NCBI GenBank assembly: GCA_030527765.1
Contig: JAUNAE010000033.1
Coordinates: 8,050 to 19,732 of the forward strand
Source of the DNA: Eubacteriales bacterium
Lineage (GTDB): Bacteria; Bacillota_A; Clostridia; Lachnospirales; Lachnospiraceae
DNA: 11,683 nt
Direction of reading: 5' to 3'
The first letter of the stretch is position 1. Every line of letters starts with the position of its first letter. This document shows, in pieces, positions 384 through 11,594 of this stretch. The position numbers were made by a program, and so were the translations under genes. The notes beneath the pieces were generated by a model. The model was not told the DNA's origin and ran no database searches. It saw only the letters and a program-made list of their open reading frames with translations.

Positions 384-653
384 TCAGTTGAGCATCTTTC
401 TCAGTTCTTCAGGCAGCTCCTCTACACTCTCGATCCCGATGTAAGCGAGTACTTTCGGCAAGTAAACATCGTAGCGATATTTCACCCGCTTTGAGTTTTG
501 TGCTTTCGCCGGTCTGGCCTGGCCGATATTGAACGTTTTCTTCTCCGGAGCCAGGCTCATTTCCTTCCGGAGCATGTAGCGTACCGTATCTGGGTACACT
601 CCAAGGATCTTTGCAGCCTGGCTGACGGAGATTCTGACTTTACTGATCTCCAT
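384..653 (-). CDS. Excisionase-like / small helix-turn-helix DNA-binding protein (89 aa)
   Basis: Residues 7-32 (start RISVSQAAKILGVYPDTVRYML) form a winged-helix motif of the MerR/excisionase type: SxxxAAKILGVxxxTVRYML. A basic middle section (RPAKAQNSKRVKYRY) follows, then an acidic C-terminal helix. An upstream in-frame ATG at 704 exists, but AAGGAGGAG lies 4 bases before the ATG at 653, and the extra residues would overlap the preceding gene, so I choose 653. It is the second gene of the leftward operon. Proteins of this kind bind element ends and steer the integrase toward excision, or act as early regulators; which role applies here is inference. An operator copy (687-702) lies 34 bases upstream of the start. 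Confidence 0.75.
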   Translation of the reverse strand: MEISKVRISVSQAAKILGVYPDTVRYMLRKEMSLAPEKKTFNIGQARPAKAQNSKRVKYRYDVYLPKVLAYIGIESVEELPEELRKMLN

Positions 654-681
654 GTTTCTCCTCCTTCGTATTGCTTTTATC

Positions 682-912
682 TCACCGTCGCACATCTGCG
701 ACATATTGAGTAAAAAAAATCTTATTCACTTCGTTTTTATCCATTTTAAGGACTCTCGCCATAGCATCAACCTCTTTGATGCTAAATGTTGCTCCGTTAG
801 CAGATAATTTTCTATAAAAAGTTGCTTTATCAATTCCCACTTTCTCAGCCATTTCTGTGATGTTCATCCCACAGCTTCCTATTTTTTCTCTTAATTTGTT
901 TACATCAACCAT
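682..912 (-). CDS. Cro-like XRE-family helix-turn-helix protein (76 aa)
   Basis: The 76-residue protein starts MVDVNKLREKIGSCGMNITEM. The helix-turn-helix spans about residues 15-40 (MNITEMAEKVGIDKATFYRKL), and a conserved tail follows (MARVLKMDKNEVNKIFF). This layout is typical of small Cro-like phage regulators. Three starts are possible: GTG 921, ATG 918 and ATG 912. AGGAGG at 921-926 gives 8-base spacing only for the ATG at 912. It is the first gene of the leftward operon, opposite the S24 repressor, from a TTGACA/TATTGT promoter. It probably competes with the repressor for the shared operators. Its last codons contain one operator copy. Confidence 0.85.
   Translation of the reverse strand: MVDVNKLREKIGSCGMNITEMAEKVGIDKATFYRKLSANGATFSIKEVDAMARVLKMDKNEVNKIFFTQYVADVRR
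687..702. promoter_or_regulatory. Repressor operator copy inside the Cro-like gene
   Basis: GTCGCACATCTGCGAC is an inverted repeat (GTCGCA, 4-bp spacer, TGCGAC). It differs by one spacer base from the operator at 928-943. It lies in the last codons of the Cro-like gene and 34 bp before the excisionase-like start, so it could let the repressor block elongation or a secondary promoter. Binding is inferred from the repeat and context. Confidence 0.6.
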
Positions 913-927
913 TATCATCACCTCCTT

Positions 928-943
928 GTCGCATATCTGCGAC
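928..943. promoter_or_regulatory. Repressor operator at the leftward promoter
   Basis: GTCGCATATCTGCGAC is a perfect 6-bp inverted repeat around TATC. It begins 8 bp downstream of the -10 box of the leftward promoter, over the expected transcription start and just before the ribosome binding site of the Cro-like gene. A bound repressor would block that promoter. Confidence 0.75.
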
Positions 944-950
944 TAACATT

Positions 951-979
951 ACAATATCATTCAACCTTATTCATGTCAA
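951..979 (-). promoter_or_regulatory. Leftward early promoter for the Cro-like operon
   Basis: Reading the minus strand, TTGACA (979-974) and TATTGT (956-951) are separated by 17 bp. This is a near-consensus sigma-70 promoter aimed at the Cro-like gene. Operators flank it on both sides (928-943 and 987-1002). Confidence 0.8.
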
Positions 980-986
980 TTGTTTT

Positions 987-1002
987 TTCTCATTTCTGCG
1001 AA
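987..1002. promoter_or_regulatory. Degenerate repressor operator between the divergent promoters
   Basis: TTCTCATTTCTGCGAA matches GTCGCATATCTGCGAC at 12 of 16 positions, with one half-site (TCTGCGA) intact. It lies just upstream of the leftward -35 box and between the two divergent promoters, as expected for the middle operator of a repressor/Cro switch. Confidence 0.55.
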
Positions 1003-1018
1003 TATTTTTTCTATTTTC

Positions 1019-1034
1019 GTTGCATATTTGCGAA
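1019..1034. promoter_or_regulatory. Repressor operator over the repressor's own promoter
   Basis: GTTGCATATTTGCGAA matches the consensus operator at 13 of 16 positions and covers the -35 box (TTGCAT, 1020-1025) of the rightward promoter. This position fits negative autoregulation of the repressor. Confidence 0.65.
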
Positions 1035-1048
1035 ATACATGATATTAT
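1020..1048 (+). promoter_or_regulatory. Promoter of the S24 repressor gene
   Basis: TTGCAT (1020-1025) and TATTAT (1043-1048) are separated by 17 bp. AAAGGAGG follows at 1057-1064, just ahead of the ATG at 1071. The -35 box lies inside an operator copy. Confidence 0.7.
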
Positions 1049-1070
1049 TTTGCATAAAGGAGGTGTAAAC

Positions 1071-1703
1071 ATGGGTAGTCTAATTGGAAATAGAATAAAG
1101 GCCCGGCGCATATTCCTCAATCTCAGCGTTGATGAATTGGCAGAGCGAATAAACAAGTCCCGAGCAACTATATATAGATATGAGAATGGTGATATTGAAA
1201 GCTTGCCCACTACAATACTTGAGCCTCTGGCAAAAGCATTAGAAACCACTCCTGCAGATTTAATGGGCTGGGATGACACTGATGTTCCTCATCTTGCCGA
1301 GCAAATATCTCTTGGTGATTATCAAATACCAATCGTAGGTAGAGTCGCAGCTGGAGTGCCACTCTTTTCCGCTGATAACATCGAGGGGTATATAGATTAC
1401 AGGAAGAATCCTCGCAGCGAGGTCTTCGCTATGCATGTTGTCGGGCAGAGCATGGAGCCAAAGATCATGGACGGCGATCTCATTATTATCGATAAGAGTG
1501 CTGCATGGGACGATGGGGATATTGTTGTCGTTACTGTTAATGGGGATGAGGGGACTGTTAAGCGAATCCGAAGATATGCTGATGGTATTCGCCTGATCCC
1601 GATCAACCAGGCTGTGGATCCGATGGATTTTACAAAGGAAGAGGTTCTGGAGCTTCCGATCAAGGTGGTAGGTAAGGTTGTTCAGCTTCGCAGGGACATC
1701 TGA
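1071..1703 (+). CDS. LexA/CI-like repressor: XRE helix-turn-helix plus S24 self-cleaving protease (210 aa)
   Basis: The N-terminal XRE domain spans about residues 4-66; its helix-turn-helix includes LSVDELAERINKSRATIYRYE. A peptidase S24 domain follows (about 85-205). The nucleophile is Ser127 in GQSMEP and the general base is Lys164 in GTVKRI. The expected Ala-Gly autocleavage bond is Ala94-Gly95 in GRVAAGVP. The ATG at 1071 is chosen because AAAGGAGG precedes it; an earlier in-frame ATG at 1020 lies within the promoter and operator. In this family, RecA filaments formed on DNA damage trigger self-cleavage and release the operators, so the element is probably induced by the SOS response. It faces the Cro-like operon, and the four operators around it are its likely targets. 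Confidence 0.93.
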   Translation: MGSLIGNRIKARRIFLNLSVDELAERINKSRATIYRYENGDIESLPTTILEPLAKALETTPADLMGWDDTDVPHLAEQISLGDYQIPIVGRVAAGVPLFSADNIEGYIDYRKNPRSEVFAMHVVGQSMEPKIMDGDLIIIDKSAAWDDGDIVVVTVNGDEGTVKRIRRYADGIRLIPINQAVDPMDFTKEEVLELPIKVVGKVVQLRRDI

Positions 1704-1820
1704 TCATACCAATTGATCTGCTGCTCTGGTGAATATTTTTATAAATATGGAGGTGATGCGTAGAACTAGATATAGTTATTTTTTACATCCAATATTATTG
1801 TTATGAAAGGAGAACTAGCT

Positions 1821-2276
1821 ATGAAAAAGAAAGTAAGATTGTTTTCTCTGTTACTCGTATTTGTTTTGCTTCTGTCTATACCGACAACTGCAGGTGCTGC
1901 CAAGACCTACAAGGCAAAAAAAGTTACTTCGAAGCAAATCGTTACAGAATTTAAAAAGTCATTCAAGATTCATAAAATCAAAGATTACAAAAAAGGCAAA
2001 AACGACAGTTTAGTCGGCGAGGTCAATGATTATAAATCTAAGACTGATTTCTATGACAAACGTTACAACAAATATTGTACTGTTGAAGTGTTTGCAGATG
2101 CTTACGATGCAGCTGGCCGTCGTGCATTTCTTCAGCTCTATCAAGTGATATATAACGATGATTCTACCAACATGTATGTCTTCCGCCACAAAAATATTAT
2201 ACTACGCGTGACCAATGCAATGCCAAAGTCAGCTGCATTGAAATATTATCGAACTCTCAAATCAATTGTAAAATAA
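1821..2276 (+). CDS. Secreted hypothetical protein carried by the element (151 aa)
   Basis: The start is a typical Sec signal peptide: KKK at 2-4, hydrophobic residues 7-20, and a likely cut near residue 26-27 in TTAGAAKTY. The mature part is basic (KAKKVTSKQ..., many Lys/Tyr), then mixed, with DAYDAAGRRAFLQLYQVIY and a C-terminal helix. AAAGGAG precedes the ATG at 1821, so I prefer it to the in-frame ATG at 1803, which would overlap that site. I know no family name; small secreted Lys-rich proteins are frequent in Lachnospiraceae. It lies downstream of the repressor in the same direction (118 bp gap), so it could be expressed from the integrated state as a conversion or moron-type gene. That role is inference. 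Confidence 0.75.
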   Translation: MKKKVRLFSLLLVFVLLLSIPTTAGAAKTYKAKKVTSKQIVTEFKKSFKIHKIKDYKKGKNDSLVGEVNDYKSKTDFYDKRYNKYCTVEVFADAYDAAGRRAFLQLYQVIYNDDSTNMYVFRHKNIILRVTNAMPKSAALKYYRTLKSIVK

Positions 2277-2332
2277 ATGACCATTTTGGAAAATCACCTA
2301 GATGATCTCTAACTGATTACATTGTATCCGAG

Positions 2333-2373
2333 AAAAAAAACAAGAAGCCCCGGTGTTGGCGCACCAGAGCTTC
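2333..2373 (-). terminator. Rho-independent terminator of the Nudix-like gene
   Basis: On the minus strand GAAGC (2373-2369) pairs with GCTTC (2348-2344), with an inner GGTG/CACC stem and a GCGCCAA-type loop. TTG and a run of eight T follow (2340-2333). There is no T-run on the other side, so it acts leftward. The rest of the 186-bp gap 2277-2462 shows no gene. Confidence 0.8.
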
Positions 2374-2462
2374 CAGCCTACCGTTGCCGGTATAGGATGA
2401 TTGGTCTATGAAACCATACTTATTATATCAATTCTTCCGGCATCTGTATATATTTTTCTCTC

Positions 2463-2900
2463 TTATGATATTTTTTCTTTGACGAATTCAACTACATCTT
2501 TGTTTTTCGCCATGATTGTCTCATCCCGCTCCATATCTGCTATGGTCATCCATCGGTATCTCTGATTCTCGATGATGAATTCATGCTCCTGCATTACTGT
2601 GGGAATGAGCTTTATCCGGCATGAATACAGACTGTGTCTGTATAGTTTATCAATATGATCTCTTTCCGAATACTTTTCATGTATACGATTCGCAACGAAA
2701 TGCAGATGAATGTTTTCATACGACATCTTCAGCAATTCTGATAATTTACGCATGATGTTTCTCTCATTTTCATGTTCTATCGTTTTGAAGTTTGGAAAGA
2801 ACCAGCAATCCCAGGCAGTATCAAAATACAACAGAAATCTGTTTCGATTGGTATCTTCCCCGATTGCTATTATAGAGAATGCATGTATTTCTTTTTCCAT
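2463..2900 (-). CDS. Nudix-fold-like protein beside the integrase, catalytic box degenerate (145 aa)
   Basis: The protein starts MEKEIHAFSIIAIGEDTNRN. Residues 6-40 (AFSIIAIGED..., RFLLYFDTAWDCWFFPNFK) resemble the first strands of a Nudix domain. Residues 42-64 (IEHENERNIMRKLSELLKM...) occupy the place of the Nudix box but lack the GX5EX7REUXEEXGU pattern. A late strand-helix segment (RYRWMTIADMERDETIMAKNKDVVEFVKE) fits the end of such domains. Hydrolase activity is doubtful, and a binding or regulatory role is possible. The start at 2900 has AAGGTGAT with good spacing; a GTG at 2909 is less likely. It is divergent from the integrase with only 45 bp between starts, so its promoter and the integrase promoter must overlap or lie within the genes. 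Confidence 0.65.
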   Translation of the reverse strand: MEKEIHAFSIIAIGEDTNRNRFLLYFDTAWDCWFFPNFKTIEHENERNIMRKLSELLKMSYENIHLHFVANRIHEKYSERDHIDKLYRHSLYSCRIKLIPTVMQEHEFIIENQRYRWMTIADMERDETIMAKNKDVVEFVKEKIS

Positions 2901-2945
2901 ACTGATCACCTTGTTTTTCTATTGGATTTCATAGGAGGAATACGG

Positions 2946-4100
2946 ATGGCTAAACGCAAAAAATATCCTGTACTCCCGAACGGGTACGGATCCATCAGAT
3001 ACCTTGGCAAAAATCGTTCCAGGCCTTATGCAGTACATCCACCTGCGACCGAATGTGATCAATCCGGTCATTACATCCGTCCGAAAGCCCTGTGCTATGT
3101 GGATGACTGGTATGTAGGATTTGCCGTGTTATCGTCATATCATGCAGGAACCTACCACCCCGGAGATGAGATCCTACTACAGCAATACATGGCTGTATCC
3201 GATGCGGATCTCGACTCGTTTTGCAAACGACTGCTTCGTGATCACAGAATGAGCAATCACTCTTCTGCTGCGAATGAACCAACCTTTGCAGATGTATATG
3301 AGCAGTTCTTCGACTGGAAATTCGGAGAGAAGGCTTCCAAGAAACTTTCCTCTTCTGCCCGATACTCATGCATGGCAGCATTCAAGAATACAGCCATTCT
3401 TCATGATCGGGCATTCCGTTCGATCACTCTGGAAGAGCTGCAGTCTGTCCTGAATACCTGCCCGCTGAAGCAAGCCAGTATTGAAATCATCCTATCCCTG
3501 TTCAAGCAGATGTATCGGTTTGCAGAACCGCGAGAGCTTTGTGACAGGAATTATGCTCAGTATCTTGTAATGCCAAATGCCGAAGGCGATGCGCATGGCG
3601 AACCTTTTACCGAGGAAGATCTTCGCAAGCTCTGGCAGCATCAGGGCGATGATGCAGTTGCTCTCATTCTGATCATGTGTTACTCCGGTTTCCGGATATC
3701 AGCTTATGCAGGTCTTGAAGTGAATCTATCCGAAGGTTATTTTCGTGGAGGTGTGAAAACTGCTGCCAGCAAGAACAGAATCGTACCGATTCACTCCAGT
3801 ATATTCCCTCTGGTCCAGAAGCGCACCATTGATGGCAAATTCATCATCAAGACAAGTGCCCAAGTACGCGTATCCATGCGTGCAGTTCTGGTGAGACTTG
3901 GTATTGATCCACACACTCCACATGACTGCAGACATACTTTCTCTACCTTATGCGAAAAATACAAAGTAAACGAGAATGATCGTAAGCGATTGCTCGGACA
4001 CAGCTTCCAGGCTGATATAACTAATGGGATTTATGGCCACAGAACCGTGGACGAATTGAGAAGTGAAATTGAAAAAATAAAGCTGCCTGATGGGATCTGA
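2946..4100 (+). CDS. int: Tyrosine recombinase / integrase (384 aa)
   Basis: This phage-integrase-family recombinase cuts and rejoins DNA at attachment sites to insert or excise the element. The catalytic set is complete: Arg250 (CYSGFR), Lys276 (AASKNR), His326 and Arg329 (PHDCRHTF), His352 (RLLGH) and Tyr363 (GIYGHRTV). An SAM-like core-binding domain spans about residues 112-205 (TFADVYEQFFDWKF...), and the first 110 residues form a longer-than-usual arm-type or accessory N-terminus (YGSIRYLGKNRSRPYAVHPP). ATAGGAGGAA lies just before the ATG at 2946. An open frame continues upstream to 2772, but that part is antisense to the Nudix-like gene and has no ribosome site. The gene ends in a terminator with direct repeats behind it, typical of the int-att end of an element. 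Confidence 0.95.
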   Translation: MAKRKKYPVLPNGYGSIRYLGKNRSRPYAVHPPATECDQSGHYIRPKALCYVDDWYVGFAVLSSYHAGTYHPGDEILLQQYMAVSDADLDSFCKRLLRDHRMSNHSSAANEPTFADVYEQFFDWKFGEKASKKLSSSARYSCMAAFKNTAILHDRAFRSITLEELQSVLNTCPLKQASIEIILSLFKQMYRFAEPRELCDRNYAQYLVMPNAEGDAHGEPFTEEDLRKLWQHQGDDAVALILIMCYSGFRISAYAGLEVNLSEGYFRGGVKTAASKNRIVPIHSSIFPLVQKRTIDGKFIIKTSAQVRVSMRAVLVRLGIDPHTPHDCRHTFSTLCEKYKVNENDRKRLLGHSFQADITNGIYGHRTVDELRSEIEKIKLPDGI

Positions 4101-5689: not shown

Positions 5690-6010
5690 TTATACGATGA
5701 CATCTCCGGAGAGGCTGTTTGCCAGCTCTACGCTGGTCTGCTCTGCATTGCTGTACTGCTGTGCCATCTCGATCAGATCGGTGGAATGCTCTTTGATCAT
5801 CTTGTAGATACGCTGCATGTCATCCTGAAGCTGGTTGAACTTGTTTACGTATGCGGTAGCTGCCTCGCCTGTCCATACCTGTCCGCTTAATCCTGTTACC
5901 AGGGCGGTCATCTGCTGTGTCAGGTTGTTGACCTCTGTGCCGTGTCCCTCAAAACTTGCTGCTGTTGACTGTAACTGCTCCGGTGTTACCTTTAAGATAC
6001 CTGCTGCCAT
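5690..6010 (-). CDS. WXG100 family protein, WTG type, unit 1 (106 aa)
   Basis: This ESAT-6-like helical hairpin of 106 residues starts MAAGILKVTPEQLQSTAASF. The turn carries the signature Trp46-Thr-Gly48 (QVWTGEAA), and the tail has the T7SS export signal YxxxE (Tyr86, Glu90). There is no Sec signal peptide, as expected for a substrate of the EssC-type secretion ATPase. The ATG at 6010 has GAGGA 8 bases ahead; a longer upstream frame is translated repeat DNA and is rejected. It is the second gene of a pair with the YEG-type gene at 6328-6627, separated by 317 bp of structured repeats. Its protein is identical to the unit 3 copy and differs at one residue (Asn88) from unit 2. It probably forms a heterodimer with the YEG-type partner. 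Confidence 0.93.
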   Translation of the reverse strand: MAAGILKVTPEQLQSTAASFEGHGTEVNNLTQQMTALVTGLSGQVWTGEAATAYVNKFNQLQDDMQRIYKMIKEHSTDLIEMAQQYSNAEQTSVELANSLSGDVIV

Positions 6011-6071
6011 ATGTTTGTCCTCGCTTTCTTTTCTTTGTAAATCAGATAATTTTTCTTGTATTGTTAAACTG

Positions 6072-6139
6072 ATAAAAATCGATCTCGCCGCACCACGGGA
6101 TGAATGAGTGATGCTAATAAAAGTCGAATGAGTTAATTC
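6072..6139 (+). repeat. Tandem fragments of the cloverleaf repeat, unit 1
   Basis: ATAAAAATCG (6072) and ATAAAAGTCG (6117) begin two short derivatives, spaced 45 bp; the next unit begins 25 bp later at 6142. The first keeps the two ends of the full repeat (ATCGATCTCGCCGC fused to ACCACGGGA) without its interior. A spacer GAATGAGTGATGCTA is shared with unit 2. Confidence 0.7.
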
Positions 6140-6209
6140 TAATAAAAGTCGATTGCTCCGCGTTTCACGCTCCCGCAATCGCCACACCACTGCACCACGG
6201 GACTTATTA
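6140..6209 (+). repeat. Internally deleted cloverleaf repeat, unit 1 (70 bp)
   Basis: It starts TAATAAAAGTC and ends GACTTATTA, so the terminal inverted repeat is kept with one base missing. The first arm (CGATTGC ... GCAATCG with inner GCGT/ACGC) is identical to the full copies at 9455 and 11121. The second arm and most of the third are replaced by a short ACCACTGCACCACGGG join. Confidence 0.8.
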
Positions 6210-6331
6210 GAAACGCTGATCAAAGCGTTTCTACCGCCGGATTTGCGTTGCGTAGCAACATTTTCCTTTGCAAATCCGTGCGATCCACCGAAGGTGCTAA
6301 GGAAATACTGATGAAATCAGTGTTTCCTTAG
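6209..6331. repeat. Row of hairpins between WXG unit 1 genes
   Basis: Four hairpins follow the 70-bp derivative. They are AGAAACGCT/AGCGTTTCT (6209-6232); CGGATTTGC/GCAAATCCG with inner GTTGC/GCAAC (6238-6278); CACC/GGTG (6286-6296); and CTAAGGAAA..ACTGAT/ATCAGT..TTTCCTTAG (6297-6331). The last one contains the stop codon of the YEG-type gene and is absent from units 2 and 3. It may be the remnant of a second repeat type or a processing/termination structure between the pair. Confidence 0.65.
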
Positions 6332-6627
6332 TAATTTCTTGTTGTTGCTGTCTGTACGTTTGCCTGCTCTGCCTTCTCATATGCTGCTGCGATCTGCTCG
6401 AGCTTTGCCACATACTGTGCGATGGCATTGTAGAAGTTGTTCATCTGGGTGGTGTCTTTGGTGAATGCTGCGTGGAATGCATCACTTGCTTCACCTTCGT
6501 ACTGTCCTCTTAAGGTCTGCTCTTCCTGAGTCAGGGTATTTACTGCACTCTTGAACTGCTCATTCAGTCCGTTTAATTCCTCTGCTTTTGCTCTTAAAGT
6601 TGCACTGGTTACAAGAATTTCACTCAT
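6328..6627 (-). CDS. WXG100-like protein, YEG type, unit 1 (99 aa)
   Basis: This short all-helical protein starts MSEILVTSATLRAKAEELNG. The turn reads Gln-Tyr43-Glu-Gly45, so the usual Trp of WXG is Tyr, as in many partner subunits of WXG100 heterodimers. The tail has a YxxxE export-type signal (Tyr83, Glu87) and ends TTRNY. GAGAGGA lies 8 bases before the ATG. It is the first gene of unit 1, transcribed from a promoter at about 6689-6718. Its protein sequence is identical to those of units 2 and 3. It probably pairs with the WTG-type protein encoded downstream for T7SS export. No secretion gene is in view. Confidence 0.92.
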   Translation of the reverse strand: MSEILVTSATLRAKAEELNGLNEQFKSAVNTLTQEEQTLRGQYEGEASDAFHAAFTKDTTQMNNFYNAIAQYVAKLEQIAAAYEKAEQANVQTATTRNY

Positions 6628-6688
6628 GTATGTTTCCTCTCTTTCTGATGATTCATTTCTGTGTTTTTCTGTTTTTTAACTTGTCTAC

Positions 6689-6718
6689 ACTATACTACAA
6701 CTATTTGTATATTTGTAA
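6689..6718 (-). promoter_or_regulatory. Promoter of WXG unit 1
   Basis: On the minus strand TATAGT (6694-6689) follows TTACAA (6718-6713) by 18 bp. The -35 box is weak, and a regulatory module shared with the promoter at 7229 sits 32 bp upstream of the -10, which suggests activator dependence. Confidence 0.5.
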
Positions 6719-6725
6719 TAAATTG

Positions 6726-6751
6726 GATGAAATGCATATTTGCAGGATGAA
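6726..6751. promoter_or_regulatory. Shared promoter module A (GATGAA boxes 20 bp apart)
   Basis: GATGAA occurs at 6726-6731 and 6746-6751, flanking GCATATTTGC (6734-6743). The same arrangement with the same spacing occurs at 7267-7292. Direct repeats about two helical turns apart, just upstream of a weak -35, are typical of dimeric activators of the LytTR kind; the regulator is not known. Confidence 0.55.
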
Positions 6752-6767
6752 TGACTGTTTTCGTCTC

Positions 6768-6977
6768 TCAGTTTTTCTCTTTCTTATTTGGCAGCACTAA
6801 AGCTACGATAATGGTAATAATCGGGAAAATCATTCCGATGATCCACCAGGCTGCAAAATATCTGTATCCCTTCTTTCTTGTTGTCGTTGCTGCCAGATAG
6901 CCGGCTGCCACTCCCACCAAGATCAAAAATACGGTTGCCGGCATTAACATTAATCCTTCTGTGATCCCTACTTTCAT
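6768..6977 (-). CDS. Small membrane protein with two transmembrane segments (69 aa)
   Basis: The protein starts MKVGITEGLMLMPATVFLIL. One transmembrane helix spans about residues 9-30 and a second about 41-62, with a basic loop (TTTRKKGYRY) between them and a charged tail (PNKKEKN). AAGAGGTGG lies well placed before the ATG at 6977. It is the first gene behind a long structured leader (about 7225-6978) and lies 140 bp upstream of WXG unit 1. Small two-TM proteins are common and I cannot assign a family. Placement next to the WXG pair and a shared promoter module make a role near the secretion system possible, but that is inference. Confidence 0.75.
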   Translation of the reverse strand: MKVGITEGLMLMPATVFLILVGVAAGYLAATTTRKKGYRYFAAWWIIGMIFPIITIIVALVLPNKKEKN

Positions 6978-7022
6978 ATTGCCACCTCTTTCTACTAATT
7001 GCTTCTTTGTTGTTCTTTACTG

Positions 7023-7183
7023 TGAAAGTCCCGGACAGCGGCTGAGCAGATGTCGAGTTTACTCGAGCAGATGCTCAGACATTGGACGGGCAAGACGGTA
7101 TGAGCAAGTAGGCCGATCAGGCCGGATTGCGAATACCGGCGGCGATTCCGAGAGCTGCAATGCAGCGGAGGAATCGACTTTCA
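7023..7183 (-). repeat. Divergent cloverleaf repeat in the leader of the two-TM gene (161 bp)
   Basis: The ends are TGAAAGTC and GACTTTCA, a perfect 8-bp terminal inverted repeat. In the minus orientation it aligns with the 177-bp repeats: TCGATTCCTCCGC, GGAATCGCC, CGGTATTCG, CTCATACCG, TTGCCCGT, AATGTC and GGGACTTT match in order. All helices are kept, but with different base pairs: arm 1 CGATTCC/GGAATCG, inner GCTGCA/TGCAGC; arm 2 CGGTAT/ATACCG; arm 3 CCCG/CGGG, TGAGCA/TGCTCA, CGAG/CTCG. It is transcribed as part of the leader of the gene at 6768-6977, in the opposite sense to the copies inside the WXG units relative to the gene. Confidence 0.8.
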
Positions 7184-7194
7184 TACTTAGTAGG

Positions 7195-7212
7195 GTTCTG
7201 CACCAGCAGAAC
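7195..7212 (-). other. Hairpin near the 5' end of the two-TM gene leader
   Basis: GTTCTGC and GCAGAAC pair perfectly around a 4-base loop, about 20 bases after the -10 box and 11 bases before the divergent cloverleaf repeat. It would be the first structure in the transcript. Confidence 0.6.
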
Positions 7213-7228
7213 ATATACGTTTAGTTTG

Positions 7229-7257
7229 ATTATACTATATTCTTTTTGTTTTTACGG
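7229..7257 (-). promoter_or_regulatory. Promoter of the two-TM gene leader
   Basis: TATAAT (7234-7229, minus strand) is a consensus -10. The -35 position (about 7252-7257, CCGTAA) is poor and overlaps a TTTTTACGGTAAAAA palindrome. The resulting leader is about 250 nt long. The remaining gap sequence up to the plus-strand gene at 7398 shows no gene. Confidence 0.55.
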
Positions 7258-7263
7258 TAAAAA
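7249..7263. promoter_or_regulatory. Palindrome TTTTTACGGTAAAAA over the -35 region
   Basis: This perfect 15-bp palindrome lies between the -10 box at 7229 and module B. Related palindromes recur at 8736-8750 and 8799-8814. Its place over the -35 suggests a repressor site. Confidence 0.5.
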
Positions 7264-7266
7264 TTT

Positions 7267-7292
7267 GATGAACGGCATATTTGCCAGATGAG
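7267..7292. promoter_or_regulatory. Shared promoter module B (GATGAA/GATGAG boxes 20 bp apart)
   Basis: GATGAA (7267-7272) and GATGAG (7287-7292) flank GCATATTTGC (7275-7284). The distance to the -10 (33 bp) matches module A (32 bp). It also lies 106 bp upstream of the divergent plus-strand gene at 7398. Confidence 0.55.
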
Positions 7293-7397
7293 CGGAAGTT
7301 CTTTTTGCGTTTTCCTGCTGCCGGTGCTACTATAAAACTAAACATACCATCTGTTAATTCAGATATAACCATGAATAAAAAGGAAGGAGAAATTATT

Positions 7398-8069
7398 ATG
7401 AAACAGTTAAAAAGGACACTTTTTCTCACTCTTCTTTTGCTGATGCTGATCCCTCAGACGGCACTGGCTGCCTCTGCACGTTCTAAAGCACTCAGCGCAT
7501 ATCGAAATTTTCTGTCGCAGTCCACATTCAACTGGCCTGATTCACGTACGATTGTGGATATGCAGAAGTGTGAATTTGCACTCGTGTATGTCGACAAAAA
7601 CTCTGTCCCGGAGCTTTTGATCTATTCCGGAGCTAATTACAATACTCACGCTGACGGCTTCTATCTGTTATATACCTACAAAAAAGGAAATGTCGTATTT
7701 CTCGGAAATATGATGGACGGCTTTTCCTATTACAGAAAAAAAGGTGTCTACTGTGCCTTCCACGGCGGGACCAGCGGCATGGACCGCTATTATTTCAAGC
7801 TTTCCAAAGGCAAAGTCTCCGCTATTCTCTACACCTATGATGACAGCACCTACAAAGGATACGATCTGAACGGTGATGGTGTGGTAGCAGGAATCTCCTA
7901 CTATAAAGTAATTTCCGCCAAAGACCCAATGTATCTGTCTGTCACCGGAAAGCGTATCAGTAAGCGATCCTTTTCCAGGATCCTGAAGAAACAGGTTGGA
8001 TCCACAAAACGTTCTACCGTAAAAAAGTATCCTAATACTGCTGCAAACCGTGCGAAATATCTTCGTTAA
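7398..8069 (+). CDS. Secreted hypothetical protein with an EF-hand-like loop (223 aa)
   Basis: The signal peptide MKQLKRTLFLTLLLLMLIPQ is followed by TALA, the likely cut. The mature protein starts with a helical part (SKALSAYRNFLSQ). A beta-rich domain follows, with FALVYVDKNSVPELLIYSG, FYLLYTYKKGNVVFLGNM and DRYYFKLSKGKVSAILYTY. Residues 156-161 (DLNGDG) fit the first half of a calcium-binding loop. Secreted proteins with a VPELLI-type strand are frequent in Lachnospiraceae, without known function. AAGGAAGGAGAA precedes the ATG at 7398; a longer frame from 7281 has no ribosome site. TATAAA at 7331-7336 may be its -10. It is the only plus-strand gene in the WXG part and ends in a strong terminator. 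Confidence 0.8.
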   Translation: MKQLKRTLFLTLLLLMLIPQTALAASARSKALSAYRNFLSQSTFNWPDSRTIVDMQKCEFALVYVDKNSVPELLIYSGANYNTHADGFYLLYTYKKGNVVFLGNMMDGFSYYRKKGVYCAFHGGTSGMDRYYFKLSKGKVSAILYTYDDSTYKGYDLNGDGVVAGISYYKVISAKDPMYLSVTGKRISKRSFSRILKKQVGSTKRSTVKKYPNTAANRAKYLR

Positions 8070-8072
8070 AAG

Positions 8073-8113
8073 AGAGCCAGGTGTTCACTCCACTCCAACA
8101 CCTGGCTCTTTTT
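8073..8113 (+). terminator. Strong terminator behind the secreted protein gene
   Basis: AGAGCCAGGTGTT (8073-8085) pairs perfectly with AACACCTGGCTCT (8097-8109), followed by TTTT. AAAA precedes the first arm, so it can also stop the convergent leftward gene at 8143. Confidence 0.92.
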
Positions 8114-8142
8114 GCATTATTTTCTGTTTTTTGTATGATCTC

Positions 8143-8547
8143 TTAATATCTCAAATAATAATATTTGCTCCACTTACCGAACTTCTTTTTGCCATTTACT
8201 ATTTTGTAAGCTCTTGCACGTACACGTACTACCTCGTAGATTCCCCATCCTCTGACAGCACTTGTTTTTTTGGTAGTTACTTTACGATCATAATAACTGT
8301 CATAACGATTTTCCTTGATTCCGTAGCTGTACTGATAGCCGTCCGCTCCACGCACTTTTGTCCAGCTTAATCTGTAATAGGCACCGGTGACTCCCTTTGG
8401 TGTATAGGCATATTTTACAGATGTGACTCTTGGTGTACCTACTTTCTTTGCTGCTGAAGCTTTTGCTGATGCACCGATCGTGAACAGTGCTGTCAGAAGC
8501 AGTACCATCACCAGCATTTTTTTCATGTTCTTTTTTGCTCTTTCCAT
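8143..8547 (-). CDS. Small secreted fibronectin type III-like protein (134 aa)
   Basis: A signal peptide (MKKMLVMVLLLTALFTIGAS...) ends near ASA at residue 32. The rest is one FnIII-like domain: GTPRVTSVKYAYTP, LSWTKVRGADGYQYSYG (the common LxWxxVxGAxGYxv motif), VVRVRARAYKIVNGKKKFGKW and a Tyr-rich last strand (SKYYYLRY). Such single domains in Lachnospiraceae usually bind surfaces or partner proteins. AGAGAGG lies well placed before the ATG at 8547; a second ATG at 8526 would also leave the signal peptide intact. It converges on the gene at 7398 across a shared terminator, and a 435-bp regulatory gap lies upstream. Confidence 0.8.
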   Translation of the reverse strand: MERAKKNMKKMLVMVLLLTALFTIGASAKASAAKKVGTPRVTSVKYAYTPKGVTGAYYRLSWTKVRGADGYQYSYGIKENRYDSYYDRKVTTKKTSAVRGWGIYEVVRVRARAYKIVNGKKKFGKWSKYYYLRY

Positions 8548-8602
8548 TTCCTTTTCCTCTCTGTACCCCTTTATGTGTTCATCTTTATCTTTGTATCTTT
8601 AT

Positions 8603-8843
8603 GTAAACTATCGTTTACGGAAAATATCTGGCTTTCATACCTGAACTTCCGTAATTTTCAGCTTTTCTGAGCTTTTTAAGCGGCATTTTTCTCGCTGAAT
8701 CTCGATTTTACGGAAGTATAAAGTATATCCTGGGTATTTTACCGTAAAATCAGCCTGAAATTCTTCCAAACTGCCTGAGTCAGGCTTTTCAGAAGCTTAT
8801 TTTACGGATAAAATTTTGAAATATTAGTTTTTCTTCCGTAAAT
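8603..8843. promoter_or_regulatory. Cluster of TTTTACGG-type sites upstream of the FnIII-like gene
   Basis: In a 436-bp gap without genes (8548-8983) the motif TTTACGG or its complement occurs six times: 8614, 8646, 8706, 8736, 8799 and 8833. Two are palindromes, ATTTTACCGTAAAAT (8736-8750) and ATTTTACGGATAAAAT (8799-8814). GTAAAC/GTTTAC (8603-8618) is a further inverted repeat. A hairpin GCCTGA/TCAGGC followed by TTTT lies at 8773-8789. The site recurs at 7249. The spacing is irregular, which fits a cluster of binding sites better than a repeat array. Confidence 0.45.
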
Positions 8844-8865
8844 GCCTCCCGGCAAAAAAATCTAC

Positions 8866-8949
8866 AAAAAAATTGCAGTACCGAGAATCATATATCGGTA
8901 TCGGCCTTTCTTGCCTCCTCTGTAATATATGATCTCCGGTGCTGCGATT
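8866..8949 (-). terminator. Long terminator hairpin behind WXG unit 2
   Basis: Arms 8871-8895 and 8925-8949 pair almost throughout (ATCATATAT/ATATATGAT at the top, then an ACCG/CGGT region with a few G-T wobbles and two mismatches, then GCAG/CTGC at the base). On the minus strand the hairpin runs into a T7 tract (8872-8866). It lies 35 bp after the stop of the WTG-type gene. Confidence 0.7.
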
Positions 8950-8983
8950 TCAGTTTCTTTTCACTTGCTTATCCTGTCTTCTT

Positions 8984-9304
8984 TTAGACGATGACATCTC
9001 CGGAGAGGCTGTTTGCCAGCTCTACACTGGTCTGCTCTGCGCTGCTGTACTGCTGTGCCATCTCGATCAGATCTGTGGAATGCTCTTTGATCATCTTGTA
9101 GATGCGCTGCATGTCATCCTGAAGCTGATTGAACTTGTTTACATATGCGGTAGCTGCCTCACCTGTCCATACCTGTCCGCTTAAGCCTGTTACCAGTGCG
9201 GTCATCTGCTGAGTCAGGTTGTTGACCTCTGTTCCGTGTCCTTCAAAACTTGCTGCTGTTGACTGCAGCTGCTCCGGTGTAACCTTTAAGATACCTGCTG
9301 CCAT
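8984..9304 (-). CDS. WXG100 family protein, WTG type, unit 2 (106 aa)
   Basis: It is the same protein as at 5690 and 10693 except Ser88 for Asn (QQYSSAEQ). Trp46-Thr-Gly48 marks the turn, and Tyr86/Glu90 give the YxxxE export signal. Silent differences from the other two copies run along the whole gene (for example CAG/CTG choices near the start), so this copy has diverged most at DNA level. GAGGA precedes the ATG. It is the second gene of unit 2 and the last before the long terminator at 8866. The gap to its partner holds one full cloverleaf repeat and two fragments. Confidence 0.93.
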   Translation of the reverse strand: MAAGILKVTPEQLQSTAASFEGHGTEVNNLTQQMTALVTGLSGQVWTGEAATAYVNKFNQLQDDMQRIYKMIKEHSTDLIEMAQQYSSAEQTSVELANSLSGDVIV

Positions 9305-9365
9305 ATGTTTATCCTCGCTTTCCTTCCGTTATAAATCAGATAATTTTTCTTGTATTGTTAAACTG

Positions 9366-9454
9366 ATAAAAGTCGATTGCTCCGCACCACGGGACGAATG
9401 AGTGATGCTAATAAAAGTCGATTGCTCCGCACCACGGGGCGACTGACTTGATTT
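9366..9454 (+). repeat. Two tandem 45-bp deletion derivatives of the cloverleaf repeat
   Basis: Units start at 9366 and 9411, and the full copy's equivalent position is 9457, so the period is 45-46 bp. Each is AAAAGTCGATTGCTCCGC fused directly to ACCACGGG. That is the first and last parts of the full repeat joined at CCGC, a short sequence present at both sides of the missing interior. Confidence 0.8.
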
Positions 9455-9631
9455 TAATAAAAGTCGATTGCTCCGCGTTTCACGCTCCCGCAATCGCCAC
9501 CTGGTATTCGGAAATCGCTTCGTCGCTTTGCTCCGCAGCTTTTTTCCTCATACAGGTTTGCCCGTGCTATGTCGATGCATCCTTACGTGCCAGCACGACG
9601 TCTGCATCGCCGCACCACGGGACTTTTATTA
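9455..9631 (+). repeat. Full-length cloverleaf repeat, WXG unit 2 (177 bp)
   Basis: The ends TAATAAAAGTC and GACTTTTATTA are perfect inverted repeats. Inside, three arms are visible. Arm 1 is CGATTGC/GCAATCG (9465-9471/9490-9496) with inner GCGT/ACGC. Arm 2 is CCTGGTAT/ATACAGG (9500-9507/9550-9556, one bulge). Arm 3 is CCCGTG/CACGGG (9561-9566/9616-9621), GATGCA/TGCATC and CGTG/CACG. With the closing end pair this gives a four-way junction. It has no coding capacity and no transposase. Its right end includes the stop codon of the YEG-type gene. It appears identical to the copy at 11121. Confidence 0.9.
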
Positions 9632-9928
9632 ATAATTTCTTGTTGTTGCTGTCTGTACGTTTGCCTGCTCTGCCTTCTCATATGCTGCTGCGATCTGCTC
9701 GAGCTTTGCCACATACTGTGCGATGGCATTGTAGAAGTTGTTCATCTGGGTGGTGTCTTTGGTGAATGCTGCGTGGAATGCATCACTTGCTTCACCTTCG
9801 TACTGTCCTCTTAAGGTCTGCTCTTCCTGAGTCAGGGTATTTACTGCACTCTTGAACTGCTCATTCAGTCCGTTTAATTCCTCTGCTTTTGCTCTTAAAG
9901 TTGCACTGGTTACAAGAATTTCACTCAT
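9629..9928 (-). CDS. WXG100-like protein, YEG type, unit 2 (99 aa)
   Basis: The protein is identical to units 1 and 3 (Tyr43-Glu-Gly45 turn; YxxxE at 83-87; TTRNY end). At DNA level it differs from unit 1 at about one silent base near the stop, whereas unit 3 differs from it by about nine silent bases, all in the 5' part. AAAGGAGG lies 8 bases before the ATG, a stronger site than in units 1 and 3. It is the last of a tight run (10662 to 9629, gaps of 12-30 bp), so this copy is expressed with the two divergent WXG-like genes. Confidence 0.92.
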   Translation of the reverse strand: MSEILVTSATLRAKAEELNGLNEQFKSAVNTLTQEEQTLRGQYEGEASDAFHAAFTKDTTQMNNFYNAIAQYVAKLEQIAAAYEKAEQANVQTATTRNY

Positions 9929-9958
9929 GGATGTTTCCTCCTTTTTCTACTCTGCTTT

Positions 9959-10276
9959 TCAGGCGTATTCCCTTGTCTCCGCCGTTTTTAAGGCTGCCAG
10001 CTCTGCATCTCTCATCTTTGCGGCGATCTGGCGTATCATCTCTGCTGCCTTCTCGATCTGATTGGCATTCTGCAGAATTTCTTCTTTGATAATCTCCCCT
10101 TTTTTGAAATAGGCTGCAGCATTTTCACTCTTCCAGATTCCGGCTATGTCTGCCAGACACTCTTCCAGATCCTGCCCAGCCTTATTTCTCATATTCTGTG
10201 CAATTTCCGTAAGAGTTTCTGCCTGTTCTATCGCTCTGGCGTAATTCAGTTGAATTTCGCTTGCACTACCTGCCAT
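9959..10276 (-). CDS. Divergent WXG100-like protein, WKS turn (105 aa)
   Basis: The 105-residue all-helical protein starts MAGSASEIQLNYARAIEQAE. The turn reads Gly-Ile-Trp48-Lys-Ser50, so Trp is kept but Gly is Ser, as in several WXG100 relatives. The end (TAETREYA) recalls the TTRNY end of the YEG-type proteins. The ATG at 10276 has AAGGAGG 5 bases ahead; the GTG at 10291 would overlap the previous gene and has no site of its own. The preceding gene ends 12 bp upstream and the YEG-type gene starts 30 bp downstream, so all are co-transcribed. It is probably a T7SS substrate or a partner of the 124-residue protein upstream. Confidence 0.8.
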   Translation of the reverse strand: MAGSASEIQLNYARAIEQAETLTEIAQNMRNKAGQDLEECLADIAGIWKSENAAAYFKKGEIIKEEILQNANQIEKAAEMIRQIAAKMRDAELAALKTAETREYA

Positions 10277-10287
10277 TGCTGCCTCCT

Positions 10288-10662
10288 TCACTGCTTTCCG
10301 ATCACAAATCCAAGATGTTCCAAACTGCTTCGAATTCCCTTCAGATTCATTCTCTGAATCTTATATCCGACAATTCTTATCCCCCTGCTGTTTCCCACGA
10401 TCTTGTCCTCTGTATTTTTGTATAACTCACAGACCCTCTGGAGTCCCTCAGCCAGAGAACGCATCTGATGCTGCTGTTCTTCAAGATCTCGTCTGCTGCG
10501 TTCAAGGACATGATACAGCACTTCCATCTCCTGGGTTTCCTGCTGTCTCATCCAGTTCATACAGCTCTCCAAATTCTCTATTCTGCCGTGATAACTGCCG
10601 GCGGTCTTTCTCATCTGCTCCGCCTGCCTCAGCAGCGAATCTGTCTTGACTTCCATCATCAT
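10288..10662 (-). CDS. Helical WXG100-like protein with a basic C-terminal tail (124 aa)
   Basis: Residues 5-87 form two long helices. The turn region holds Trp37-Met-Arg39 (CMNWMRQQ) in place of WXG, and the second helix ends with a YxxxE signal (Tyr81, Glu85). Residues 90-124 are an extra basic and hydrophobic tail (RGIRIVGYKIQRMNLKGIRS...) not found in the other proteins here. The start at 10662 has AAGGGAGA 9 bases ahead; ATGs at 10659 and 10656 are possible. It lies 30 bp behind the WTG-type gene of unit 3 and 12 bp before the WKS-type gene. The pairing of two dissimilar WXG-like genes suggests a second heterodimer. Confidence 0.75.
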   Translation of the reverse strand: MMMEVKTDSLLRQAEQMRKTAGSYHGRIENLESCMNWMRQQETQEMEVLYHVLERSRRDLEEQQHQMRSLAEGLQRVCELYKNTEDKIVGNSRGIRIVGYKIQRMNLKGIRSSLEHLGFVIGKQ

Positions 10663-10692
10663 CTTCTGTGTCTCCCTTTTCTTCCGAATCTA

Positions 10693-11013
10693 TTATACGA
10701 TGACATCTCCGGAAAGGCTGTTTGCCAGCTCTACACTGGTCTGCTCCGCATTGCTGTACTGCTGTGCCATCTCGATCAGATCTGTGGAATGCTCTTTGAT
10801 CATCTTGTAGATGCGCTGCATGTCATCCTGAAGCTGGTTGAACTTGTTTACATATGCGGTAGCTGCCTCGCCTGTCCATACCTGTCCGCTTAATCCTGTT
10901 ACCAGGGCGGTCATCTGCTGTGTCAGGTTGTTGACCTCTGTGCCGTGTCCCTCAAAACTTGCTGCTGTTGACTGTAACTGCTCCGGTGTTACCTTTAAGA
11001 TACCTGCTGCCAT
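10693..11013 (-). CDS. WXG100 family protein, WTG type, unit 3 (106 aa)
   Basis: The protein is identical to unit 1 (Asn88 form, Trp46-Thr-Gly48, YxxxE at 86-90). In DNA, the first half of the gene and its upstream stretch match unit 1 almost base for base, whereas the second half has about six silent changes, a patchwork that suggests gene conversion. GAGGA precedes the ATG. It follows the YEG-type gene of unit 3 across a 281-bp gap holding one cloverleaf repeat and one fragment, and is followed after 30 bp by the 124-residue WXG-like gene. Confidence 0.93.
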   Translation of the reverse strand: MAAGILKVTPEQLQSTAASFEGHGTEVNNLTQQMTALVTGLSGQVWTGEAATAYVNKFNQLQDDMQRIYKMIKEHSTDLIEMAQQYSNAEQTSVELANSLSGDVIV

Positions 11014-11074
11014 ATGTTTGTCCTCACTTTCTTTTCTTTGTAAATCAGATAATTTTTCTTGTATTGTTAAACTG

Positions 11075-11120
11075 ATAAAAGTCGATCTCGCCGCACCATG
11101 AATGACTGCGTTGATTCTAC
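11075..11120 (+). repeat. Truncated cloverleaf repeat fragment, unit 3
   Basis: ATAAAAGTCGATCTCGCCGC is followed by ACCA and then unrelated sequence; the full copy's equivalent position is 48 bp further on. It shares the TCGATCTCGCCGC variant with the first fragment of unit 1. Confidence 0.65.
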
Positions 11121-11297
11121 TAATAAAAGTCGATTGCTCCGCGTTTCACGCTCCCGCAATCGCCACCTGGTATTCGGAAATCGCTTCGTCGCTTTGCTCC
11201 GCAGCTTTTTTCCTCATACAGGTTTGCCCGTGCTATGTCGATGCATCCTTACGTGCCAGCACGACGTCTGCATCGCCGCACCACGGGACTTTTATTA
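11121..11297 (+). repeat. Full-length cloverleaf repeat, WXG unit 3 (177 bp)
   Basis: By eye it is identical over its whole length to the copy at 9455-9631, with the same ends, arms and position relative to the YEG-type stop codon. The identity continues into the 3' part of the YEG-type gene. Confidence 0.9.
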
Positions 11298-11594
11298 ATA
11301 ATTTCTTGTTGTTGCTGTCTGTACGTTTGCCTGCTCTGCCTTCTCATATGCTGCTGCGATCTGCTCGAGCTTTGCCACATACTGTGCGATGGCATTGTAG
11401 AAGTTGTTCATCTGGGTGGTGTCTTTGGTGAATGCTGCGTGGAATGCATCACTTGCTTCACCTTCGTACTGACCTCTTAAAGTCTGCTCTTCCTGGGTCA
11501 GGGTGTTGACTGCGCTCTTGAACTGCTCGTTCAGTCCGTTTAATTCCTCTGCTTTTGCTCTTAAGGTTGCGCTGGTTACAAGAATTTCACTCAT
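11295..11594 (-). CDS. WXG100-like protein, YEG type, unit 3 (99 aa)
   Basis: The protein is identical to units 1 and 2. The 3' part of the gene (11295 to about 11470) matches unit 2 base for base, while about nine silent differences fall between 11471 and 11575. GAGAGGA lies 8 bases before the ATG at 11594; a longer frame reaching 11681 has no start site and is rejected. It is the first gene of a run that continues to 8984. The 89 bp upstream to the window edge probably hold its promoter, but I see no clear -35/-10 pair and no GATGAA module there. Confidence 0.9.
   Translation of the reverse strand: MSEILVTSATLRAKAEELNGLNEQFKSAVNTLTQEEQTLRGQYEGEASDAFHAAFTKDTTQMNNFYNAIAQYVAKLEQIAAAYEKAEQANVQTATTRNY

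Follow-up and report, generated by a model that had tools for sequence, protein, structure and literature searches.

What are the cloverleaf-like repeats in an 11,683-nucleotide (nt) stretch of a Lachnospiraceae genome (Eubacteriales bacterium, contig JAUNAE010000033.1, positions 8,050 to 19,732 of the forward strand; hereafter the window), and how did they come to recur there? Search with Rfam covariance models revealed that the repeats are members of a named RNA family, RF01699 (Clostridiales-1; model length 166, curated cut-off 48 bits). Within related genomes, RF01699 forms the folded interior of a short mobile DNA element that occurs in many copies and resembles a miniature inverted-repeat transposable element (MITE): its copies there combine target duplications, inverted-repeat ends, empty sites and high copy number. 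An initial annotation, made from the letters of the window, had offered two readings, namely a non-autonomous mobile element or a dispersed structured RNA. Both are well supported for the family in relatives, by target duplications and empty sites and, as regards the RNA, by covariation as well; for the window's own divergent branch, we infer the mobility.

Clostridiales-1 copies in the window and their predicted fold

The window contains three full copies and one shortened derivative, three of the four lying in esxA-esxB gene modules described further below:

7023..7183, plus strand: divergent 161-nt copy of the Clostridiales-1 core, located in a separate intergenic region (RF01699 101.8 bits, model positions 1-166 of 166; fold z -8.6)
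9455..9631, minus strand: 177-nt core copy immediately following the stop codon of the module 2 esxA gene (RF01699 95.4 bits; fold z -6.2)
11121..11297, minus strand: 177-nt core copy at the same place in module 3, identical to 9455-9631 on comparison (RF01699 95.4 bits)
6140..6209, minus strand: internal-deletion derivative (70 bp) in module 1, retaining the P4 arm and both ends (repeat families D4, D6 and D7)

The three full copies match RF01699 end to end, with exactly the ends assigned in the initial annotation. The 70-bp derivative shares the ends with them, as had been proposed, and keeps the P4 arm, but the stretch 6140-6319 on the minus strand reaches only 33.8 bits against the cut-off of 48. 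The initial annotation had not recognised the repeats as a known riboswitch or named repeat, a view to be given up on a match to an element already described; such a match exists, and it rules out a new RNA family.

Aligned over 184 columns, the 161-nt and 177-nt forms are identical in 125, and the folding of each beats all 200 of its shuffled versions. The compensatory changes reported between the two forms (CGATTGC/GCAATCG to CGATTCC/GGAATCG, GATGCA/TGCATC to TGAGCA/TGCTCA and CGTG/CACG to CGAG/CTCG) are readable in the alignment. In an alignment of 36 copies, two from the window and 34 from 31 genomes, two-sided changes occur in 35 of 43 pairs. Standard pairs fill 93.9% of the cells, compared to 78.2% after shuffling and at most 41.3% after sliding. 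The covariation score is 0.457 against 0.180 (sd 0.009) for shuffled alignments, none of 500 being as high, and at most 0.090 for slid ones. The shuffled control is inflated by related rows, and sliding preserves the relatedness but gives an advantage to a structure that was itself built from these sequences. Conservation extends to unpaired blocks, among them ATGAG and CGAAT. The cloverleaf, composed of a closing stem and three arms, is conserved with strong covariation.

On the Rfam strand, the pairs predicted by RNAalifold include 20 G-U against 5 A-C. A control of S-adenosylmethionine (SAM) riboswitches (26 sequences, 25 of the same genomes) gave 21 G-U against 8 A-C, with a similar G-U share (3.0% vs 2.2%), so a DNA-only constraint, suggested by the rarity of G-U pairs, is ruled out. 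In genome G285, paired positions vary in 6.4% of cases and unpaired ones in 9.7%, and one-sided changes give G-U 44 times against A-C 18 times, its copies not being independent of each other. By this measure of G-U against A-C, the Rfam strand appears to behave like an ordinary RNA. A riboswitch or other cis-regulator is rejected, since the element has no constant position and orientation before related genes and its sites in G285 differ.

A mobile element in related genomes

Relatives were reached via the esx genes, and the survey covered one taxonomic family, that of genome G001, which we take to be Lachnospiraceae. RF01699 matches were found in 161 of its 299 genomes, and 130 of these pass the cut-off; up to nine candidates were scored in each genome. 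A sample of the phylum, with at most six candidates scored per genome, has matches in 4 of 398 genomes (G001, G194, G221 and G275), all already among the 161. Fuller searches show that copy numbers can be high, with at least 93 matches in G285, where 150 of 177 candidates were scored, and 31 in G246.

The typical element is ~180-190 bp long and consists of the 5' end GATRCCAGGGTCAAAAG, the cloverleaf and a 3' tail ending CTTTTGACCCCAACATC, which is an imperfect reverse complement of the 5' end. Terminal inverted repeats are thus present but imperfect (GATRCCAGGGTCAAAAG vs GATGTTGGGGTCAAAAG). We examined 59 copies of G285 and, at one copy per genome, the copies of 33 genomes, and kept the 29 and 21, respectively, that have a recognisable tail. 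Most of the 59 begin abruptly, an unrelated flank giving way to GATACCAGGGTCAAAAGG or a close variant; on the 3' side the element extends beyond the Rfam model into a hairpin tail ending CTTTTGACCCCAACATC or a variant (29 of 59 copies).

Exact flanking direct repeats with a minimum length of 6 nt, in most cases 7 or 8 nt, border 24 of the 29 tailed copies in G285 (shuffled mean 1.28, maximum 5 in 1000 pairings) and 13 of the 21 taken one per genome (shuffled mean 0.47, maximum 4 in 2000 pairings). These repeats are 7-8 bp long and A/T-rich, and the target is close to ATNNNAT. Among 33 seven-base repeats, drawn from the G285 flank test and from the set of facing end pairs in G052, A occupies position 1 in 28, T position 2 in 30, A position 6 in 30 and T position 7 in 32. 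In atypical targets (TTTCTAT, TATTTTTA) both repeats depart from this pattern together, which shows that the repeat arose by duplication rather than belonging to the element.

Empty sites, which the initial annotation had suggested looking for, were found as well. Four joined-flank queries of the twelve prepared were searched against 41 genomes (G285 and relatives), and two of the sites were then aligned. At the L111 site, G336 and G332 continue from the upstream gene into the spacer without the element; at the L125 site, the same two genes are separated by a short spacer in G335 and G019, while the stretches from G334 and G332 are too short to show it. Each of the two insertion sites is therefore empty in two relatives.

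Shortened elements accompany the full-size ones. In 800 kb of G052, 13 facing end pairs within 8 kb have exact outside repeats, 11 of them at 182-184 bp, one at 69 and one at 36. Adding 20 stretches around known ends brings the set to 20 full-size elements with exact repeats, which were listed only if such a repeat is present and so give no repeat rate, and to eight 69-bp elements, of which seven have such repeats. The 69-bp form consists of the cloverleaf's first arm plus the ends, and its junctions vary: in four of the eight the arm's GACYTTGGGRCCC survives, in four the tail's GACCTTTTGACCC or its GGCC variant. As the GACYTTGGGRCCC and GACCTTTTGACCC stretches are near-direct repeats in the full element, 69-bp forms can arise repeatedly by deletion. 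Given these varied junctions, the 69-bp forms do not bear out the proposal that most of the core is dispensable or that they move as such. Nearly ends-only forms of 36 bp with exact 8-bp repeats occur in G052 and in G285 (L196), and the same caution applies to them, as they may have been shortened after insertion.

Within G285, up to three mismatches allowed, there are 104 5' ends against 49 main-type 3' tails, a rough ratio as the tail pattern misses variants; 15 of 20 extra 5' ends fetched there have no tail in the adjoining stretch. After some complete elements of G285, the right-hand repeat is followed by a 5' fragment of another copy. Some G285 cores have a second type of continuation, AGGTGCGG..CCACAAGGAAA..GTGCTCTTTTTCATG, which at L199:3126-3674 forms a 159-bp tandem array of 3.5 units with 98% identity.

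As to insertion context, simple open reading frame calls, with tandem copies counted separately, place the nearest downstream gene in the orientation of the element for 41 of 59 G285 copies; between co-directional genes, 18 copies run with them and 11 against. The idea of insertion behind promoters in one orientation was dropped, as the promoter-like score is higher on the left for 13 and on the right for 10 of 29 copies, which is no difference.

Several candidate enzymes and carriers were also rejected. Elements of the repetitive extragenic palindrome (REP)/REP-associated tyrosine transposase (RAYT) type or the IS200/IS605 type insert without target duplication, and the relatives do have duplications. 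An IS256 partner is not supported, since 3 of 10 high-copy genomes have an IS256-type transposase and 4 of the 5 loci examined are without paired ends of the element's type; nor is an ISL3 partner, with an ISL3-type transposase in 1 of 8 genomes scored for its presence. RAYTs are host-kept transposases for REP repeats, and we would guess that the enzyme acting here may likewise be a single-copy, host-kept transposase.

Carriage by phages was rejected too: the hairpin pattern occurs in nine viral contigs, none of which matches RF01699 at the cut-off. Among the viral contigs the 5' end pattern has no match and the 3' end pattern nine, none with a 5' end upstream, and blastn with a window copy found nothing in phages or plasmids. 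A G052 copy plus flanks retrieved three plasmid records, of which only a Butyrivibrio fibrisolvens plasmid is a good match (E 2e-16, with 75% identity across 46% of the query length). It also retrieved 21 phage records, among which 19 are named 'Bacteriophage sp.'; the listed ones come from fecal samples and are unannotated.

The esx modules and the branch in the window

The window carries three esxA-esxB (WXG100) modules with 94-99% identity over 300-nt gene blocks. Their genes, together with remnants of the element, are as follows:

8984..9304, minus strand: WXG100 gene resembling esxB, located in module 2 downstream of the copy (PF06013 E 1.8e-16; repeats D2)
5690-6010 and 10693-11013: esxB-like homologues of 8984-9304 (repeats D2)
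9629..9928, minus strand: WXG100 gene resembling esxA, located in module 2 upstream of the copy (PF06013 E 2.6e-12; repeats D1)
6328-6627 and 11295-11594: esxA-like homologues of 9629-9928 (repeats D1)
9364..9395, minus strand: 32-nt remnant joining the first and last nucleotides of the element (repeat family D4, sequence read)
9409..9440, minus strand: a further 32-nt remnant in which the element's termini are joined (repeat family D4, sequence read)
6070..6101, minus strand: remnant with the element's termini joined, module 1 (end approximate; repeat family D4)
11073..11099, minus strand: remnant with the element's termini joined, module 3 (end approximate; repeat family D4)

As the 9455 and 11121 copies occupy the same place in duplicated modules, they were multiplied with the module and are not independent of each other. 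The repeat family described in the initial annotation is confirmed, with the correction that these two copies derive from gene duplication.

The orthologous gap between esxA and esxB measures 21-121 nt in eight of the nine relatives that encode the pair, compared to ~280-330 nt in the window. In the ninth relative (L011) it is 293 nt and is occupied by a different, ~45-nt repeat. RF01699 at the cut-off is absent from the esxA-esxB loci of all nine. The orthologous gaps being much shorter and without RF01699, the window element is taken as an insertion that probably arose at the stop codon of esxA in its own lineage, although no clean target duplication is visible there. The L011 gap (L011:7708-8000) is a tandem array of ~45-nt units (GCGGGCATGAGAATTATTTAGCGGCGCTC-like) that does not match RF01699 at the cut-off; letters similar to this array follow the RF01699 copy of L031.

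The surroundings show further features. The stretch 5690-11594 resembles a type VII secretion cluster: besides the modules it comprises two small genes at 9959-10662, one with a weak WXG100 match. Module 1 alone has two additional strong palindromes, TAGAAACGCTTTGATCAGCGTTTCTA and TAAGGAAACACTGATTTCATCAGTATTTCCTTA, inserted on the minus strand at 6210-6338 beside the deleted element. Related motifs TGCATATTTGC and GGCATATTTGCCAGATGA at 1021-1042, 6733-6754 and 7242-7291 (families D8 and D9) stand 5' of several genes and are possibly operators. The stretch 384-4100 encodes a LexA-like repressor with a helix-turn-helix, small regulators and a tyrosine recombinase (2949-4100), and resembles the end of an integrated element adjoining the esx cluster.

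Explanations and comparison with known systems

We consider it probable that a mobile element with an RNA cargo, of which the window holds an old, divergent branch, explains the observations as a whole. A DDE-type transposase made elsewhere would bind the GGGTCAAAAG ends and insert the element mostly between genes; tandem copies would stem from renewed insertion into the regenerated target, and the many short derivatives from deletions between the element's internal repeats. The cloverleaf would be a predicted RNA of the Rfam strand, carried since it may help the element to persist, for example by shielding neighbouring transcripts. The copies in the window would descend from one insertion at the esxA stop codon, copied as the esx module multiplied and then partly deleted, with the 7023 copy separate from the esx-linked ones.

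Several observations weigh against this explanation. No exact 6-nt repeat flanks 5 of the 29 and 8 of the 21 tailed copies, and a recognisable tail is missing in 30 of 59 and 12 of 33 copies. No firm rule of orientation relative to genes or promoters is seen in G285, and the searches made revealed neither a transposase for the element nor a coding version of it. Likewise, no longer element with such ends (GATRYYRGGGTCAAAAG) and matching flanks occurs in the parts of genomes covered, namely 800 kb of G052 and the loci scanned. In the window, visual inspection around 7023-7183 and around the esx copies shows no clear target-site duplication, and the subfamily ends are AAAGTC/GACTTT, unlike the type with proven target duplications.

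These last two observations would also fit a non-mobile branch in the window, an older chromosomal RNA that gave rise to the mobile form with GATRCC ends, or the reverse. Similar copies in G002 and G003 (L029, L031 and L035) are also without a recognisable tail, but none of the nine relatives has the copy in its orthologous gap, and a second, unlinked copy exists at 7023; we regard such a branch as rather unlikely. The moving substrate or intermediate might instead be the folded single strand itself, RNA or DNA, with the arms needed in cis. The strong conservation of the arms points that way, as do the many 5' fragments without a 3' end, including the 15 tail-less ones among the 20 extra 5' ends of G285, and the hairpin arm that the 69-bp derivatives always retain. 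However, fixed-size target duplications and inverted-repeat ends point to a DDE enzyme and fit it better, and the 36-bp, near-ends-only form has exact 8-bp duplications in both G052 and G285, though perhaps shortened after insertion, which makes movement of the folded strand improbable. The varied junctions of the 69-bp forms lower the odds of the RNA-cargo element, and also those of a mobile RNA of one bacterial family, a single structured RNA that would be kept across Lachnospiraceae because it rides in a transposon-like element and benefits it. Such an RNA would act in trans, perhaps as a cofactor or regulator of the enzyme, a host-kept transposase outside the usual insertion sequence families, which the 69-bp and 36-bp forms could then parasitise, a scheme that we think unlikely to be correct.

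The paired changes could also be mechanical, if template switching in quasi-palindromes copies a mutation to the other arm without selection. The summed per-pair table, with 253 two-sided against 42 one-sided cells, is what such copying would leave, and the interior does undergo deletions. Nevertheless, the unpaired blocks ATGAG and CGAAT are conserved too, the paired positions of G285 are the less variable ones, and the SAM riboswitch control behaves likewise (43 two-sided, 10 one-sided), so that we give this mechanism little weight. Still more remote is an ordinary small RNA gene multiplied by duplication without any mobile element. Rfam does list RF01699 as a small RNA (sRNA), and two of the three full window copies were multiplied by gene duplication, but the target duplications, empty sites and copy number already contradict this proposal for the relatives.

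The name of the RNA family was already known; RF01699 as the core of a MITE-like element in relatives is new. An Rfam family of gut-bacterial RNAs without a function thereby gains a testable setting inside a high-copy mobile element, which accounts for its copy number, asks for its 'sRNA' annotations to be read differently and offers markers of recent insertions between strains. It also raises the questions of which enzyme moves the element where ISL3 and IS256 transposases are rare, and what role the cloverleaf plays inside it.

A table of 2010 classed the Clostridiales-1 RNA as probably an RNA, not cis-regulatory and not a switch (Weinberg et al. 2010, PMC2864571), and the words 'mobile' and 'multiple copies' are absent from the main text of that paper as available. 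The window copies match the whole model above the cut-off, and the published entry appears as a table row only (PMC2864571). Titles and abstract openings, within a partial coverage of the literature, give no sign of a published account of Clostridiales-1 mobility.

Among known systems, the RAGATH-18 RNAs of IS607 TnpB are, like RF01699, an orphan structured RNA motif that is explained by a transposon (PMC11061315). They adjoin a nuclease gene, whereas no coding version was found for RF01699 in our searches. The bcr repeats of the Bacillus cereus group are likewise high-copy and interspersed, with mobile features, bcr1 averaging 39 copies per strain and reaching 130; they belong to another bacterial group and differ in a TTTAT motif and a recombination-like mechanism, and inverted-repeat ends such as those described here are unmentioned in the passages available (PMC6542083). 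The MITE RUP of Streptococcus pneumoniae resembles the present element in being short, without visible coding capacity, intergenic and present in ~100 copies, with inverted-repeat ends and a target duplication, but RUP is 107 bp long, uses a TA target and has ends in common with IS630-Spn1 (PMC2229807). Compared to RUP, the present element has a 7-8 bp target, no known partner and an interior that forms a covarying cloverleaf across a bacterial family.

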